A DNA stretch of 64,000 nt from Chloroflexota bacterium (GTDB taxonomy: Bacteria > Chloroflexota > Anaerolineae > Anaerolineales > UBA11579). Under the pieces are notes generated by a model, which saw only the letters and a program-made list of their open reading frames with translations, had not been told where the DNA came from and ran no database searches. Position 1 is the first letter of the stretch. The number at the start of each line of letters is the position of its first letter. A program made the translations under genes and the position numbers. Of this stretch, positions 40,017 through 48,281 are shown piece after piece. Location of the stretch: assembly GCA_013112575.1 (NCBI GenBank), contig JABFGG010000006.1, forward strand, positions 62,001-126,000, read 5' to 3'.

Positions 40017-41123
40017 TTGCATAATTCATCGGACCCGCATATGCCCTTCTCATTTCCTCCTCTTTGGCAATTTCTGAAACATCGACTACATCATTTTCTC
40101 AAATCACATACCAAACCAGCAACTTCTGCGCATACACGCGGCGCACTCGCGGACCTCACCCGCAGCAAGGCTGACCTGATAATAGAAAACGCGCTGATGC
40201 GCCAGGTCAAACGCCCGCAGTTGACGCCCGGTGATCGCTTCCGTCTGGTGGTGTTGGCAAGCTGGACACCGTTCTGGAAACAGGCGCTTCATATCGTCCA
40301 GCCAGACACCCTACTACGCTGGCACCGAGACCTTTTCGGGCAATAGTGGCGCAGAAGATCCAGGTCAAAAGGAAGGAAGCCGCGCATTGCCCAGGAGACG
40401 ATCGCCTTGATCAAGGAAATGGCCCAAGAGAACCGTACCTGGGGTGCCGAAGGCATCCGAGGAGAGCTGGGCATGCGGGTCAGCAAACGCAGCATCCAAC
40501 GTTATCTCCCCAAGAAGCGCTTGAAATCCAGTCAGAACTGGGCCAACTTCCTGAAAAACCATGCCGGTGAGATTTGGGCCTGCGATTTCACGGTCGTCCA
40601 TGATCTACTCTTTCGCCCCCTCTACATTTTCGTCATCGTCGAGCTGAAAACGCGGCGTATTCTTCATTATGCTGTAACTGCTCATCCCACTGATGCCTGG
40701 ACATCCCAGCAACTGAGAGAAGCCACGCCCTGGGGAAAGGCTCCCAGGTTTCTCATCCATGACCGTGACAGGAAGTTTGGTGCTCTGTTCTCAGCCCTGG
40801 CCGCTGCCTCGAACATCAAGCAGCTGGTGACGCCCTTTCAAGCGCCCAAGGCCAATGCCATTTGCGAACGTTTTATCGGCAGCTTGAAACGCGAGTGTTT
40901 GGACCACATGTTCATCCTGCACCAACGGCATTTACGGAAAGTTGTGGCGGAGTACATGGGCTACTACAATCGCTCAAGACCACATCAGGGTATTCAACAG
41001 CGTATTCCGGCCAGGCTTGAGAACAGCTTCTCGCTCTCCGGCCGGTCAGCAGGCAAAGTCATCACCAGGCCAGTGTTGGGCGGACTGCATCACACTTATG
41101 CTCGGGCAAGCTATGTGAACTAA
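40017..41123 (+). pseudogene. rve/DDE integrase-type transposase with one in-frame TAG
   Basis: ORFs 40017..40346 and 40407..41123 share frame; TAG 40344-40346; WACDFTVVHDLLFRPLYIFVIVELKTRRILH, FLIHDRDRKFG, APKANAICERFIGSLKRECLDH. Confidence 0.85.
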
Positions 41124-41447: not shown

Positions 41448-41702
41448 ATGAGTGTGCTTTCCTCTGATACCCATCCAAAGATGGAAAAGCTACAGATTCA
41501 GTTGTGGAGACAGGCAAGTCCTACTCAAAAAATGCACATGGTGGCGCAACTGAATGCCTCCACTCGTTTACTGGCCCTGGAAGGTCTTCGGAAACAGCAT
41601 CCAGGATCTAGCGAAACCAATTTGCGACGCAGGCTTGCAGATCTTGTGCTGGGGGCAAATCTTGCAAGCAGGGTCTACGGTGACCCAATAGATGCAAAAT
41701 GA
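41448..41702 (+). CDS. Small protein, transposon cargo; partner of the nucleotidyltransferase-like gene
   Basis: 84 aa; overlaps next start by 11 nt; inside TIRs. Confidence 0.65.
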   Translation: MSVLSSDTHPKMEKLQIQLWRQASPTQKMHMVAQLNASTRLLALEGLRKQHPGSSETNLRRRLADLVLGANLASRVYGDPIDAK

Positions 41703-42276
41703 GCCCCTTGAAGTCACCCTGTTAGTAACTGGCACTCTAGAAAAACTCGACATCCCATATTTTATTACCGGGTCGCTGGGCAGCGCCTTATATGGCATGG
41801 TGCGATCCACCCAGGATGCGGATATAGTCGCAGCCATGCGCCCCGAACATACACAAGCTTTTTTGAATGCTCTGCAAGACGAATTTTTTCTTGATGAGGA
41901 AATGATCGCGAATGCGACTGAGCAAGGCACAAGCTTTAATATCATCCACCGTAACACGATGTTCAAAGTGGATGTTTTTATTCCACCACCCGATCCTTTT
42001 CAACAATCACAATTTGAGCGCACACAACAGCTGAGCTTCTCGCTTGAGCGAGAACGAAGCGCAAACTTTGCCAGTCCTGAAGATATCATTCTTTCAAAAC
42101 TTGACTGGTACCGCAGTGGTGGTGAGATTTCCGAGCGCCAGTGGCGCGATGTCCTGGGGGTGATCAAAACACGATCTGTCGATCTGGACAAGGAGTATTT
42201 AACGAGGTGGGCACACGAACTGAAAGTGCATGATCTGCTTGCGCGTGCACTTGGGGAAGCCGGGGAACAGACATGA
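41692..42276 (+). CDS. Nucleotidyltransferase-like protein
   Basis: YFITGSLGSALYGMVRSTQDADIVAAM (GS-x-DxD-like), ...SPEDIILSKLDWYRSGGEISERQWRDVLGVIKT. Confidence 0.75.
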   Translation: MQNEPLEVTLLVTGTLEKLDIPYFITGSLGSALYGMVRSTQDADIVAAMRPEHTQAFLNALQDEFFLDEEMIANATEQGTSFNIIHRNTMFKVDVFIPPPDPFQQSQFERTQQLSFSLERERSANFASPEDIILSKLDWYRSGGEISERQWRDVLGVIKTRSVDLDKEYLTRWAHELKVHDLLARALGEAGEQT

Positions 42277-42547: not shown

Positions 42548-43144
42548 TCACCGTCCATCAATAAACTCCTGAGCCCAAACGCTATCCAGCCTTTTCGTAA
42601 CCAGCACCCGCAATCCACTGGGGCCCAGGGGCTCTTCATGGTACACGAAATCTATAATGTAAACTGGCACACCATTCATTTTTACTGCCGAAACGCTTTG
42701 CTCTGCTTCCGAGAATTCAGGGTAAATCGAATCAACATACGCCTGTGCCATTCCAACAGCCTCCTCGGACTGAACACCTATAAAAGGGAGCACCGGATCC
42801 AGGCTCTCGGCAAACATATCGCCGATAAAGAACAGAGCATAGACCGCTGCAAATCCAATGGCGAAGCGCGTACCAAACTTCCATAGCAGTGATGGTGTGT
42901 CTTCTTCCTTTTTACTACTTTCGGTTTGCAGAACCACCACTTGAGGAGCCTGGGCTTGTGTTGCTGGTTGTACCTGTTGTACGGCCTGAGTTGGTGGGGC
43001 GGGTGCAGGCGGCGGTGTTGTCGATTCTTGAATTAACTCTTCGGCAGTAGAGTGAGGCTTACCACAATTCGCGCAGAACTTCTTATCGATCTCAACTGGG
43101 CTGCCGCAGTGCATACAGAATTTGGGTTTCTTGTCGTCGCTCAT
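42548..43144 (-). CDS. Zinc-ribbon, single-TM protein
   Basis: FCMHCGSPVEIDKKFCANCGKP; Pro/Gln linker; TM segment. Confidence 0.8.
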   Translation of the reverse strand: MSDDKKPKFCMHCGSPVEIDKKFCANCGKPHSTAEELIQESTTPPPAPAPPTQAVQQVQPATQAQAPQVVVLQTESSKKEEDTPSLLWKFGTRFAIGFAAVYALFFIGDMFAESLDPVLPFIGVQSEEAVGMAQAYVDSIYPEFSEAEQSVSAVKMNGVPVYIIDFVYHEEPLGPSGLRVLVTKRLDSVWAQEFIDGR

Positions 43145-43153
43145 GGTTCCCTC

Positions 43154-44935
43154 TTAAGGCAGGTTGCAGGATGGCGGGGCTTCGCTGCCCGCACTCGGAT
43201 ATTGCAGCTCGCCGCCCATACACGAGCACCATCCTTCATACACGGGATAGGAATCGGGTTCACTGGGGTCGGGTGATGAGGGTTCGCTTCCACAAGCGGG
43301 GCCACCATATTCCACGCCTACGTCGTCTCCACTATCATCTGACCCGCTACTCGAATCGCCACCCGATCCTGTTTCCTCGCCGTTCTCACTGCTGCTGGAT
43401 GCGCTTTCCCCCTCATCTGGTCCGGCTAATTCTGCCCCGGCATCATCATCGTTATCGGGCGGTCCGCCCAGTTCTACACCAGGGGAATTGTCCTGCACCT
43501 GGACCGCACCCGGTAAGTTGATGGCAGTTCCCGCAATCTCACAGTTCTCGCCCGCTGGATACAGAGAAGCCCGCGAGGCGGTCACGTTCACCTGCGGGCC
43601 GGTGCAGATCAAGCGCGTCGCGTCCGTCAGTGTGCTGTTCACCCGCACGAACTGGCATGAAAAAGTCTCTCCTGGTGGGTCTAGCAGGAGCCGGTACTCA
43701 CCAGAATCAAAGGCATCTGCATTGTCAACGAAGATGGATAGTTGACCTTGCAATTGATCACCGCCTGGGTATATCGTCAGGCTGGTAAATTGTTCATCAC
43801 AAGCATCTCCTGATGCAGTTCCATACTCCACGCCAGCACCAAGGTTGCTGTTGAAAATAATGGAGCCTTTAATGATACGCTCTCCAGAGTTATCCAGTTC
43901 GGTCCAGTTGCAATAGCTAAAGTTCGCCCCGCTGCCACAAATATTTGTCGAAAGACCCTGATACGGGCTTTGGCATGGTGTCAGGATATCGTGTGTAGAA
44001 CTCGTTATGTCTCTTAGGCTGAATTTGAGCACATTACTGGTTTCAATCTCAAGTGTTGTCATGGACGCAGGTAATGCCGATGCCGGTAGTGCCGAGGAAG
44101 GCAACGCCGATGAGGGCAGTGCCGACGAAGGCAAAGCAGAGGCGGGTAATGCTTCGGCCGGTATTGCTTCTGCTGGGAGCGCAGACGATGGCAATGCTTC
44201 TGCAGGTATTGCCAGTTGTTTCCCGATCACATTTGATGGTATCGCGCTATCTGGCAACGCGTTGGATGGTATCGCCAGATCATTCATTAGCTGTTTCGCA
44301 CTCGCTGGAAGCGCATTGGAAGGTATTGCGAACTGCGCTTTTACATCCGGCGCGACACTTGCCGGAAGTGCATTGGCAGGAATGGCAGCTCTTGTGATTT
44401 CAAGCAGGTCAACCACTTGCTGCATGTCACTCAGGTAGGTGGGAGATAAACTCGCCAGCGTATTCGGTTCAATGAAGTTCGATGGGATGGCATAGTTCTG
44501 GATAATGACACTGATCACATTTGCAGGGATGGCATTCGATGGAATGGCAGCATTGGGCCTGAAATTGGAAGGTATGTAATTAGACGGGATCGCGTTTGCT
44601 GGGATCGCATTGGAGGGAATCGCATAAGATTGGCCACCCAATTGGATGATGAAGTGGCTTGGAGCATGTGTGGGTCGGCTCACAATATCCGGGCATATTT
44701 TTTCCACGTTGATCGTTTGGATCCCCACTGGGCTTGAGTTGTAGAAATCACTATCATCAGAGTCGGATCGAAAAGGGGAACTGACTGTTTGGACGACCTT
44801 ATTCGTCATTTTGGGTACCGGTGATTTCGGGTGTGTGGCTAACGCCACACCCACACCTAGCGTCCCTGCCACTGCCGTTGTAGCAGCCGCTTTTAGTACC
44901 TTTTTAGGATTTGGTAAAGATACGCCAAATGGCAT
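43154..44935 (-). CDS. A-[IL]-P-[SA]-[NSE] pentapeptide-repeat protein with acidic Ser-rich C-terminal region
   Basis: SYAIPSNAIPANAIPSNYIPSN...AIPAEALPSSALPAEAIPAEALPASALPSSALPSSALPSSALPASALPAS. Confidence 0.85.
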   Translation of the reverse strand: MPFGVSLPNPKKVLKAAATTAVAGTLGVGVALATHPKSPVPKMTNKVVQTVSSPFRSDSDDSDFYNSSPVGIQTINVEKICPDIVSRPTHAPSHFIIQLGGQSYAIPSNAIPANAIPSNYIPSNFRPNAAIPSNAIPANVISVIIQNYAIPSNFIEPNTLASLSPTYLSDMQQVVDLLEITRAAIPANALPASVAPDVKAQFAIPSNALPASAKQLMNDLAIPSNALPDSAIPSNVIGKQLAIPAEALPSSALPAEAIPAEALPASALPSSALPSSALPSSALPASALPASMTTLEIETSNVLKFSLRDITSSTHDILTPCQSPYQGLSTNICGSGANFSYCNWTELDNSGERIIKGSIIFNSNLGAGVEYGTASGDACDEQFTSLTIYPGGDQLQGQLSIFVDNADAFDSGEYRLLLDPPGETFSCQFVRVNSTLTDATRLICTGPQVNVTASRASLYPAGENCEIAGTAINLPGAVQVQDNSPGVELGGPPDNDDDAGAELAGPDEGESASSSSENGEETGSGGDSSSGSDDSGDDVGVEYGGPACGSEPSSPDPSEPDSYPVYEGWCSCMGGELQYPSAGSEAPPSCNLP

Positions 44936-44953
44936 TTTGCACTCCTTTCCAGG

Positions 44954-46042
44954 CTACCTTTCGCAGGCCACGAAATTATCGAAATATACATCACTGCCTG
45001 GCCCGCCTTCCAGTGCCACCCACTTCTTGAATCCAGTGGTTTCAAGGCGGTCTTGGATGACAGTTTCGCCATCGACAAGTATCATGAAGTCCCCGCCGTT
45101 GAAACTCATCTCCACGCTAAGGATATGCCAGCGCTTATCGGGACGTAATCCCATTGACTCGGAAGTAAAAAAATGGTCCTCAATAGCTAAATGGAAACTT
45201 CCTTCTTCGATATATACCGCGAAATGCAGTTTGAATACATTAGGCAGCAAAGCAAATCGCGAGGGATCGCTGGGCGATGCGCTTACGTGTAACAATTTCC
45301 CTCCTGCTTCATAATTCTCGATTACCCAACCTGAGGCCAACCCGCGACCCTCCCGCCAATCGTCGGCTATCCCATCCTCGAAATCCTCGTCGAACATAAC
45401 TTCTCCCGTATCACATTGTGCCCCTGGAGCTTGGCCCGGACCCTCTTCAGTAGCGCCTTGTGCTACCGCTGGTAGATCCTCATTTTGTGGCTCTGTGCCT
45501 GAGCTTGGACGCAGTTGCACGCTAGTGTTCACCCGCGCCTGCGTCATCTTCATTGTTCCCTGCCAGGTCTCGTGATCTGGGTGCGAAACCGTCATTGTGT
45601 AGCTGTTTTGCGGCAGGTCCGGGAAGCGCGCTTCTCCTTGCACATCGGTGTCTGCTTCCTGATCGATGTTCCCAAAATATAGCTGCACCTTCGCATTTGC
45701 CACAGGCTTTCCATCAGCGTCGCTCACCATTACCAGTAAACGCGCTCCTTCAAATGTTGCGACTGGTGTCGTGACTGGGACGCTGGCCAGTTGTGGTATA
45801 TACAACACATTTTCCGCAAATAGCAGTCCGGTCAAGCCTGCTGGGATCAGTATGCCCAGGAAGATCCAAATCCAGCCTGGCAGGCGGCGTCGTTTTCTTC
45901 TAGCTTTGGTCTCCGCTGTTTCAGCAGGTGTCGCCTCGACTTTTGAGACATCTTCCGCAACCTCATTGGCGAAATTGTGACCGCAATGCGTACAGTATTT
46001 GCTACCTTGGCTGATCTCAGAACTACAATTTGAACAGTGCAT
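44954..46042 (-). CDS. Zinc-ribbon/TM protein with carboxypeptidase-regulatory-like domain and C-terminal beta-rich domain
   Basis: CSNCSSEISQGSKYCTHCGH; TM; GARLLVMVSDADGKPVANAKVQLYFGNIDQEADTDVQGEARFPDLPQNSYTMTVSHPDHET; VMFDEDFEDGIADDWREGRG. Confidence 0.8.
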   Translation of the reverse strand: MHCSNCSSEISQGSKYCTHCGHNFANEVAEDVSKVEATPAETAETKARRKRRRLPGWIWIFLGILIPAGLTGLLFAENVLYIPQLASVPVTTPVATFEGARLLVMVSDADGKPVANAKVQLYFGNIDQEADTDVQGEARFPDLPQNSYTMTVSHPDHETWQGTMKMTQARVNTSVQLRPSSGTEPQNEDLPAVAQGATEEGPGQAPGAQCDTGEVMFDEDFEDGIADDWREGRGLASGWVIENYEAGGKLLHVSASPSDPSRFALLPNVFKLHFAVYIEEGSFHLAIEDHFFTSESMGLRPDKRWHILSVEMSFNGGDFMILVDGETVIQDRLETTGFKKWVALEGGPGSDVYFDNFVACER

Positions 46043-46063
46043 ATGAATATTCCAATAGATTTG

Positions 46064-47890
46064 CTATGGGCAATTATTCCAACAACCGGCTTCACTATCT
46101 CCTGGCAAGGTGCACCAGTAACCGTCAGTGCAGCAGCCTCCTGACCACCACACCGTCGGGCCATGGTACGATTCACCTGCCGGGCAGGCTAGCTCTTGGC
46201 CAGCTTCAGGTTCACGTGGTGGCTTCCTAGTCGGTGTGACGGTGGGTTCGAATGTGCGTAAGCCCAGCGGGGATTGGGCATGTAGTAGAGGGTCCGAGCA
46301 ACCGTTTACAAACAGGTCAATGGACAAGGTGCCGGCCTGGTTTAATCCTGGCAGCAGTTTACAATAAAGTTGATTTTCCTCGGCCGCGGGATCCTGGTAG
46401 CAATCCTCAAATGTGGGGACGGTCGCCCCATTTATAGTGGCTTCTACAGAATAATCATCCGGGCCAGTGGAACTGGGGATCCCACCTCCAAATGAGAAGC
46501 GTAGGTCAAATGGGGAAGAAGGCACCTGATATGGAAAACCTTCATAATAGCCTGAAACAAGGCTGATTTTCCCCTGGCCGAACTCTGGTAATGAACATAC
46601 ATTATCAGTTTGCTCACCACTCTCTTGTTCTGGGTTTGGATTATCCTGTGCAAGAGTCTCATCAAGCAAGATGGTACGAGTTTCGACACATGCAGAATTT
46701 TCAGCCGTGAGGATGAAGCCGGTTATGCCGCCACCGCCATTATATGGACACCATACTTCATTACAATCAGCCTCTGAGCACGGTGGCGAGCATTCATAAT
46801 TAAGTGATAGACTGTCAGTGTAATAATAAACTGAGAACGAGGCTTCTGGATCTCCTTCCAATCCTGTAAAAACTAATTGGTCGATATTTTCGTATTCCTG
46901 GTTATTGATTGCTTCGCGGATACTCTCTTCGAGTTCCAGACTTTGAATGCCTCCACAGAAACCACCGAAAGCAGGTTGGCCGTCGGCTTGGATGACCTTG
47001 GCCAAAGAAGCATCTTGAGCATTTTCGATTTCGATTTGGTCCGTTGCTAATACGCAGCCAGAATCCTCTCCATATTTCAATTCGATATTGATGACCGCAC
47101 TCTCTTCAACAAGCAAATCAAGATCTTCTGGCTCGTTTGTGTTCAGGAACTGGTAGGGTGTCTTGCAAACCACCTGGTGATCTCTGAACGGCTCAACTTC
47201 ACACTCATAAATGCCATTGAATTCGGATGAAGCGATTTCATTTCCAGTTTGTTGATCGCCCACAGAATAGCTTAGCAAATAAGTATCTGATTGATCCAGT
47301 GCGATATCTGCGCTTGCACCTTGAAAATCAAACATCCACCAGAGCATGATTTCGCCACTTTGGGCATCAAATTCCTGCAGCCCAAAGAAATAAGTCTCCC
47401 CATTTGGACTTATCCAATCCCCCTGGGGCCCGCAAAAGGCGGCTGCCCCACCGGGTTCATTCCCTCCACCATCACCATTCCTATTATTTGCATTGTCCAA
47501 GTCCTGCTGCCAGGCAGCCAACTGGTTGATCGTATTGGCCAAAAAAGGTGGAAGTTGACTGTTTGCCGGAACGGGCGAAACCTGGATTACTTGTGTGGTG
47601 GTGCCGCACACCAGCAAGCCTAAGACTAGAACCAGTCCCAAAAGGAACCATAGCCAGCCACGGCTCTTTTTCTCCTCTTCCCCTTCTTCGCCCTGCTGTA
47701 CTACCACGACAGTGGGTGGGCTAGCTGGAGATTGTGCGGTCGCTTCAGCGACAGGGGTTTCTTGCTTCTGCGATTGAGTTTGCGGTACCGGCATCGGCTG
47801 TCCGCAATTTTGGCAGAATTTTGCGCCTGGTGGGTTTTGGGTTCCGCATTCAGGGCAAAACAAACCCTTATGAACTGGGCTCTCGCTCAC
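46064..47890 (-). CDS. Zinc-ribbon/TM protein with large Cys-containing extracytoplasmic region
   Basis: FCPECGTQNPPGAKFCQNCGQPMP; TM WLWFLLGLVLVLGLLVCG; Cys-rich C-terminus CCTDGYWCTLPGDSEAGCWNNCP. Confidence 0.8.
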   Translation of the reverse strand: MSESPVHKGLFCPECGTQNPPGAKFCQNCGQPMPVPQTQSQKQETPVAEATAQSPASPPTVVVVQQGEEGEEEKKSRGWLWFLLGLVLVLGLLVCGTTTQVIQVSPVPANSQLPPFLANTINQLAAWQQDLDNANNRNGDGGGNEPGGAAAFCGPQGDWISPNGETYFFGLQEFDAQSGEIMLWWMFDFQGASADIALDQSDTYLLSYSVGDQQTGNEIASSEFNGIYECEVEPFRDHQVVCKTPYQFLNTNEPEDLDLLVEESAVINIELKYGEDSGCVLATDQIEIENAQDASLAKVIQADGQPAFGGFCGGIQSLELEESIREAINNQEYENIDQLVFTGLEGDPEASFSVYYYTDSLSLNYECSPPCSEADCNEVWCPYNGGGGITGFILTAENSACVETRTILLDETLAQDNPNPEQESGEQTDNVCSLPEFGQGKISLVSGYYEGFPYQVPSSPFDLRFSFGGGIPSSTGPDDYSVEATINGATVPTFEDCYQDPAAEENQLYCKLLPGLNQAGTLSIDLFVNGCSDPLLHAQSPLGLRTFEPTVTPTRKPPREPEAGQELACPAGESYHGPTVWWSGGCCTDGYWCTLPGDSEAGCWNNCP

Positions 47891-48050
47891 AATAATTCCT
47901 CCTTAGGATGCTTACTGCGTTGTTTGAAAATTATAGAACAAAAAAAATTTATGCCCAACTAATATCCGGCACTTTCCACTTACAATTAAGTTAGGAGAAT
48001 TTTGGCACCCTCACTTCCATATAGGAACCGCTACTATATTCCCAGGTAGT

Positions 48051-48281
48051 TTATTGGCGTCCTATCCGAACGCGCCACGCTGAGGGACCCTCCACCAGAT
48101 ATTCCCAAGAGAACTTTTTGTGTCGCTCTGCCTTAAATTGATAGTAGAGCGGATTTGGGTCATGATCATTTACAAGAATAAAAGAGTTACCAATTTCCAA
48201 GCCATCAAATTTATCAAAAATTAGGGGATGGCGCTTTGCTGGTGGGATTTCACGGATGTCCAAAACTGTATTTTGATCCAT
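48051..48281 (-). CDS. DUF2249-domain protein
   Basis: LDIREIPPAKRHPLIFDKFDGLEIGNSFILVNDHDPNPLYYQF. Confidence 0.85.
   Translation of the reverse strand: MDQNTVLDIREIPPAKRHPLIFDKFDGLEIGNSFILVNDHDPNPLYYQFKAERHKKFSWEYLVEGPSAWRVRIGRQ

Follow-up and report, generated by a model that had tools for sequence, protein, structure and literature searches.

Do four consecutive genes, three of them beginning with a zinc ribbon, encode a single coordinated envelope system, as was proposed in an initial annotation of this locus? The genes lie at positions 42548-47890 of a 64,000-nucleotide stretch of Chloroflexota DNA, hereafter the window. Chloroflexota envelopes are atypical, being considered monoderm and, in some members, multilayered, and to our knowledge few of their surface components have been named. 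The four open reading frames follow one another on the minus strand, as had been claimed, and are designated P1-P2-P3-P4 in the order of transcription (Table 1). They are separated by 21 bp (P1/P2), 18 bp (P2/P3) and 9 bp (P3/P4) and probably constitute a single operon. Direct reading revealed purine-rich stretches resembling ribosome-binding sites upstream of P1, P3 and P4. A promoter-like site precedes P1 by about 40 bp, the count of such sites in the region being not above chance when compared with shuffled sequences.

Table 1. Features of the four-gene locus in the window, and the gene order of related cassettes in other genomes (ZnR, zinc ribbon; TM, transmembrane helix; all cassettes are given in the direction of transcription).
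Feature	Coordinates	Strand	Description
P1	46064..47890	(-)	608 aa, GTG start; zinc ribbon at residues 11-33, low-complexity linker, TM at 78-96
P1 C-terminal part			Cys-rich ectodomain, then a 44-aa Cys-rich tail at residues 565-608 (CPAGESYH...GGCC...GCWNNCP)
P2	44954..46042	(-)	362 aa; zinc ribbon at 2-23, K/R-rich linker, TM at 58-76
P2 C-terminal part			CarboxypepD_reg domain at 105-168, then a beta-rich C-terminal domain
P3	43154..44935	(-)	593 aa; cationic N-terminus, hydrophobic signal-like segment at about 14-34, repeats at 105-291
P3 C-terminal part			Cys-containing beta domain at 374-482, Ser/Gly/Asp-rich linker, Cys-rich tail
P3 repeat array	44063..44623	(-)	Residues 105-291, five-residue units
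P4	42548..43144	(-)	198 aa; zinc ribbon at 9-30, Pro/Gln-rich linker
P4 C-terminal part			TM at about 86-115, small alpha-beta4 ectodomain at 126-195
Promoter-like site	47930..47957	(-)	TGGGCA-16-TATAAT
Window cassette			P1-P2-P3-P4
G131 cassette			P3-P4-P3-P4-TM/Cys
G069 cassette			P3-P4-TM/Cys
G108 cassette			beta-helix, ZnR-TM, beta-helix, P3, P4 fused to C-terminal domain, ZnR-TM
G606 cassette			P4-P3-P4-P3-ZnR-TM
G011 cassette			P4-P3 (transposase-split)-ZnR-TM-ZnR-TM

Three of the products had been described as zinc-ribbon-headed proteins with a linker, one TM helix and an ectodomain, and this architecture was borne out for P1, P2 and P4, which scored 36.2, 25.1 and 25.1 bits, respectively, against Zn_Ribbon_1 (PF13240), all above the Pfam cut-off of 25 bits. 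In each, a linker that is charged or rich in Pro/Gln is followed by a single hydrophobic segment; that of P4 (about residues 90-108) is marginal by hydropathy and appears as a helix at 86-115 in the AF2 model. Since lysine and arginine residues precede the TM segment in P1, P2 and P4 (EEEKKSRGW, KARRKRRRLPGW, SSKKEEDTPSLLWKFGTR), the positive-inside rule would place the zinc ribbons in the cytoplasm and give all three proteins an N-in/C-out topology. For P1, the K/R-rich stretch ahead of the TM helix and the location of 21 of its 25 cysteines beyond the head agree, and both would fit this predicted orientation. The initial annotation had also attributed a Cys-rich ectodomain to one protein, which is P1, and a carboxypeptidase-regulatory-like fold to another, which proved to be P2: its residues 105-168 matched CarboxypepD_reg (PF13620) at 41 bits, above the cut-off of 32.3 bits. 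The C-terminal domain of P2 had no match in Pfam or the PDB, and its comparison by hhalign with the C-terminal domains of other cassettes was not significant; it looks LamG/concanavalin-like by eye, and since it matches none of those domains this is a by-eye reading only. At least two further ZnR-TM-ectodomain proteins are encoded elsewhere in the same genome, one with repeats that look LysM-like by eye (C2) and another of 268 aa (C37), so the plan is not confined to the cluster.

P3 has no zinc ribbon, only a signal-like segment at its N-terminus. Its homologues share a KK-rich N-terminus followed by a hydrophobic stretch, with an AxA-like site in several, and given this combination of a Lys-rich start, a hydrophobic segment and an AxA-like site, P3 is likely to be exported through Sec. 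The array comprises 24 units of the form A-[I/L]-P-[S/A]-[N/S/E], the last ten of which (residues 242-291) are contiguous, while shuffles of the P3 composition contained a mean of 0.25 and a maximum of 3 such units. When pairs of repeats with identical peptides were compared (n=41), they differed on average at 3.83 positions per 15 nt and none was identical in DNA; units that are the same in peptide yet different in DNA suggest that selection, and not recent slippage, maintains the motif. P3 had originally been called a pentapeptide-repeat protein, a description of which the repeats stand and the family label does not. The five-residue period is shared with PF00805 proteins, and the minimum of eight contiguous repeats set for that family is reached both by P3 (10 units) and by the P3 of G606 (11 units). 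However, the PF00805 consensus, [ACSVTLI][DNSKEIR][LF][STREQKVD][GDENRQK], is centred on L/F and contains no Pro (PMC8145042), whereas every P3 unit contains one; neither this consensus nor the profile was matched, and five P3 homologues likewise gave no Pfam match. Since Pro is present in every unit and Pfam returned no match, we do not consider P3 a member of PF00805, and its low-confidence model contains no beta-helix. That AF2 model has a mean pLDDT of 42, with the array mostly in blocks at pLDDT 23-53, and shows a beta domain of moderate confidence around residues 386-471; the low confidence in the array is no proof of disorder, since the alignment held only seven sequences. Searches of Pfam, the PDB and Foldseek yielded no relative of P3, a Foldseek reading being rejected because the model was too poor to interpret. 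The C-terminal Cys domain is conserved across P3 copies.

The distribution of these genes bears on the question of coordination. A first search for P3, in 151 genomes of the order, identified G131, G069 and G108, and when the flanks were read a P4-like gene adjoined P3 in each. A profile of the P4 ectodomain then added G606 and G011, and in total matched 6 of 400 genomes of the order. A DNA pattern for the P3 repeats, defined as two consecutive AIPSN units, also matched six of the 400, of which five, each with multiple matches, were common to the P4 set and the other, G021, had a single match that was taken as chance. The P4 carrier that lacked a pattern match, G011, has a P3 split by a transposase. 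The probability of this overlap arising by chance is about 7e-11 under independence, an optimistic value since the sampled genomes are related. P3 adjoins all eight P4 copies, which come from six Anaerolineae genomes in three bacterial families, and the pair is duplicated in tandem in G131 and G606. P3 and P4 are a conserved, strictly linked pair that is new here. Homologues that always occurred singly and unlinked had been named beforehand as evidence against a common system, and the linkage in six genomes is the opposite of that pattern. Other P3-repeat-like matches were dismissed as chance: those in G023, G047, G053, G072 and G103 were short and restricted to the repeat, with no P3-P4 cassette in their flanks, and class-level matches in G233, G244 and G467 were similarly short and repeat-only.

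Prevalence of the pair is low (3 of 24 genomes in its own family and 2 of 152 in family f11), most relatives lack it, and in 301 genomes sampled across the phylum no match fell outside the order. By gene names assigned by eye, mtnA and ahcY lie close to the cassettes of both G606 and G011, and gltX is the neighbour in both G131 and G069. These common positions suggest that the genes were mostly passed on vertically within each lineage and elsewhere were lost or, rarely, transferred. Seven comparisons covering P3, P4 and the TM/Cys protein all gave a pN well below pS (for example, pS 0.68 and pN 0.21 for P4 of G131b versus G069), indicating that these genes are protein-coding and under purifying selection. 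Strict pairing, tandem duplication and patchy distribution are also features that might be expected if P3 were exported as an antagonist or bacteriocin-like protein, with P4 in the membrane conferring immunity or acting as its release factor, and the variable C-terminal tails and the transposases near some copies are consistent with such an arrangement. However, the conservation of the P3 C-terminal Cys domain across copies and the lack of a Pfam toxin domain argue against it, as does the chromosomal position common within families, which is contrary to a mobile element. Moreover, no P4 relative was found in viral contigs or plasmids and P3 had no PHROG, and we regard an effector-immunity role as highly improbable.

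Within the pair, all four zinc-ribbon cysteines of P4 are invariant in the eight copies, and its ectodomain is conserved in all of them. The AF2 model of this ectodomain comprises a helix (residues 126-140) followed by four strands, with block pLDDT values of 82-94, and it found no match in Pfam, among PDB sequences or by Foldseek (best E 0.13). Two candidate folds were rejected. PepSY (PF03413) fits by eye, being likewise a small domain of alpha and antiparallel beta structure, but 0 of 8 members matched the profile even at E 5; PepSY domains were also sought in the carrier genomes for profile comparison and gave one match only. Weak Foldseek matches to type II/IV pseudopilins, at the E value given above, were dismissed because the N-terminus of P4 is a zinc ribbon.

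The place of P1 and P2 is less settled. Neither has a clear orthologue in the other cassettes, and two of these cassettes (G131 and G069) carry a TM/Cys protein without a zinc ribbon, leaving P4 as their sole ZnR member. Together with the occurrence of ZnR-TM-ectodomain proteins elsewhere in the same genome, this would be expected if P1 and P2 were ordinary neighbours, unrelated ZnR-TM proteins that happen to stand beside a P3-P4 pair, with no four-gene system at all. Against this, the spacing of the four genes is tight, one or two additional ZnR-TM-ectodomain genes recur beside the pair in G108, G606 and G011, and the tail of P1 is common to P3s of other genomes. Specifically, P1 residues 505-605 matched the P3 of G606 (39% over 102 aa, E 2e-14) and the P1 tail matched the P3 of G108 (49% over 47 aa), from which it follows that P1 and P3 use common C-terminal modules. 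We therefore consider mere adjacency unlikely. A Cys-domain profile built from P3s matched G011 (E 2e-11); an equivalence of P1 domain C with this P3 Cys domain was rejected, as the two showed no more than a weak similarity (E 2.6 by HMM, P 0.0016 by hhalign). Beta-helix proteins in the cassettes look CSLREA-type. The proposal of one coordinated envelope system is thus supported for P3 and P4 by the adjacency of every P4 copy to a P3 and by their co-occurrence in 400 genomes, while for P1 and P2 the recurring ZnR-TM genes and the common tail are suggestive only, as clear orthologues are lacking.

The explanation that we prefer, to which we give an even chance, is that the four genes make up a single operon encoding a modular assembly at the cell surface, likely a matrix or adhesion layer. 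P3 would leave the cell via Sec and probably be cleaved, and its array, with Pro at every fifth residue, would serve as an extended stalk or spacer bearing a disulfide-rich C-terminal module. P4 would be the dedicated membrane partner of P3, with a cytoplasmic zinc ribbon and one TM helix, and its alpha-beta4 domain, positioned just beyond the membrane, could hold, assemble or monitor P3. P1 and P2 may likewise be anchored at the surface and bear beta ectodomains of a ligand-binding type, P1 terminating in the Cys-rich module that is also present on some P3 homologues, and the whole would build up a surface matrix or adhesion layer. Surface-type domains do occur together in the cassettes, namely CarboxypepD_reg, CSLREA-like beta-helix proteins and the Cys-rich tail of P1 and P3s; inspection of the surroundings by eye revealed neither a sortase gene nor one dedicated to secretion. 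Since the P4 ectodomain has no fold match and the P3 model is poor, we infer, and do not observe, the P3-P4 contact and the adhesive role.

A pure anchor poorly explains a conserved cytoplasmic zinc ribbon, and by analogy the ectodomains of P1, P2 and P4 could instead sense envelope state or a ligand, with P3 being what is sensed and a signal passing through the zinc ribbons to a cytoplasmic partner, much as might be envisaged for TcaA-like proteins of Firmicutes. The order of ZnR, TM and ectodomain is the same as in TcaA, and the N-terminus of P2 (residues 2-66) gave a weak match of 21.5 bits to the NCBIfam TcaA model (NF053815). However, this score is far under the cut-off of 550 bits and covers the head and TM only, and no kinase, sigma factor or regulator was consistently linked in the cassettes read, leaving transmembrane sensing a rather doubtful alternative. 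A further reading can be offered tentatively, as a possibility: P3-P4 might be an undescribed two-component surface system in which an exported Pro-periodic fibre or stalk and its dedicated ZnR membrane partner are decorated by interchangeable ZnR-TM-ectodomain proteins. Some Anaerolineae would thereby gain a distinct layer or sheath of protein, connected with the cytoplasm either mechanically or through signalling.

How does this locus compare with systems already known? Elastin-like pentapeptide polymers are built on VPGXG. P3 resembles them in having one Pro per five residues, in its small or aliphatic residues and in its predicted extracellular location, but it differs in lacking Gly, in having Asn/Ser/Glu at position 5, in being bacterial and in the Cys-rich modules that follow the array. 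PADLOC models of anti-phage defence matched none of P1-P4. Among Chloroflexota, the envelope of Litorilinea aerophila is described as multilayered, one layer being proteinaceous and a common outer one enclosing the filaments (PMC13319060), and cell aggregation in Anaerolineae has been attributed to pili (PMC4877987); genes of the P1-P4 type do not appear in the consulted passages of either paper. A cassette of this kind was not found described in the open-licence literature, and no named system fits its composition, in agreement with the initial annotation. The closest known plan is that of ZnR-TM-ectodomain proteins such as TcaA, the teicoplanin-associated membrane protein of Staphylococcus aureus, whose tcaA gene is described as encoding a zinc-ribbon-domain protein (PMC10611510). 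The likeness consists of the N-terminal zinc ribbon, the linker, the single TM and the ectodomain, whereas the P2 score places it outside the TcaA family and the gene context differs. Modular surface proteins are a known kind; for the families of P3 and P4, and for the pairing of the two, there appears to be no description in the databases and open-licence literature searched. As a self-contained conserved pair of two families outside Pfam, P3 and P4 are concrete candidates for surface-layer components, and their pairing links a zinc ribbon predicted to be cytoplasmic with a particular partner outside the cell, which could open to experiment what the widespread ZnR-TM proteins do.

On its downstream side, the probable four-gene operon of the window is closely followed by transposase-like ORFs, and its upstream flank carries a small ORF lying between an NmrA-type gene and P1, the gene for a zinc-ribbon membrane protein with a Cys-rich ectodomain.

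Features beside the operon and in or near the related cassettes of the same order (families assigned by eye)
Location	Strand	Feature
Window 40017-41123	+	Transposase-like ORFs, integrase-core type
Window 41448-42276	+	Two small, mutually overlapping ORFs, the second nucleotidyltransferase-like
Window 48051-48281	-	DUF2249-like ORF, ~76 aa
L052:7882-9057	+	IS4-like transposase ORF
L026:14266-15066	-	Probably exported protein
L028:3973-6309	-	CSLREA-type beta-helix surface protein
L028:7825-9000	-	CSLREA-type beta-helix surface protein

In genome G011, a transposase ORF interrupts the gene for P3, the probably exported repeat protein, and no AIPSN repeats are left at this split gene (L052). Near the G131 cassette (L026), the neighbouring protein contains three tandem copies of a Cys-containing beta unit. 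The beta-helix genes of the G108 cassette (L028) alternate with genes for zinc-ribbon, single-TM proteins, and sequence comparison revealed that one beta-helix protein has a domain in common with the P3 proteins of G606.
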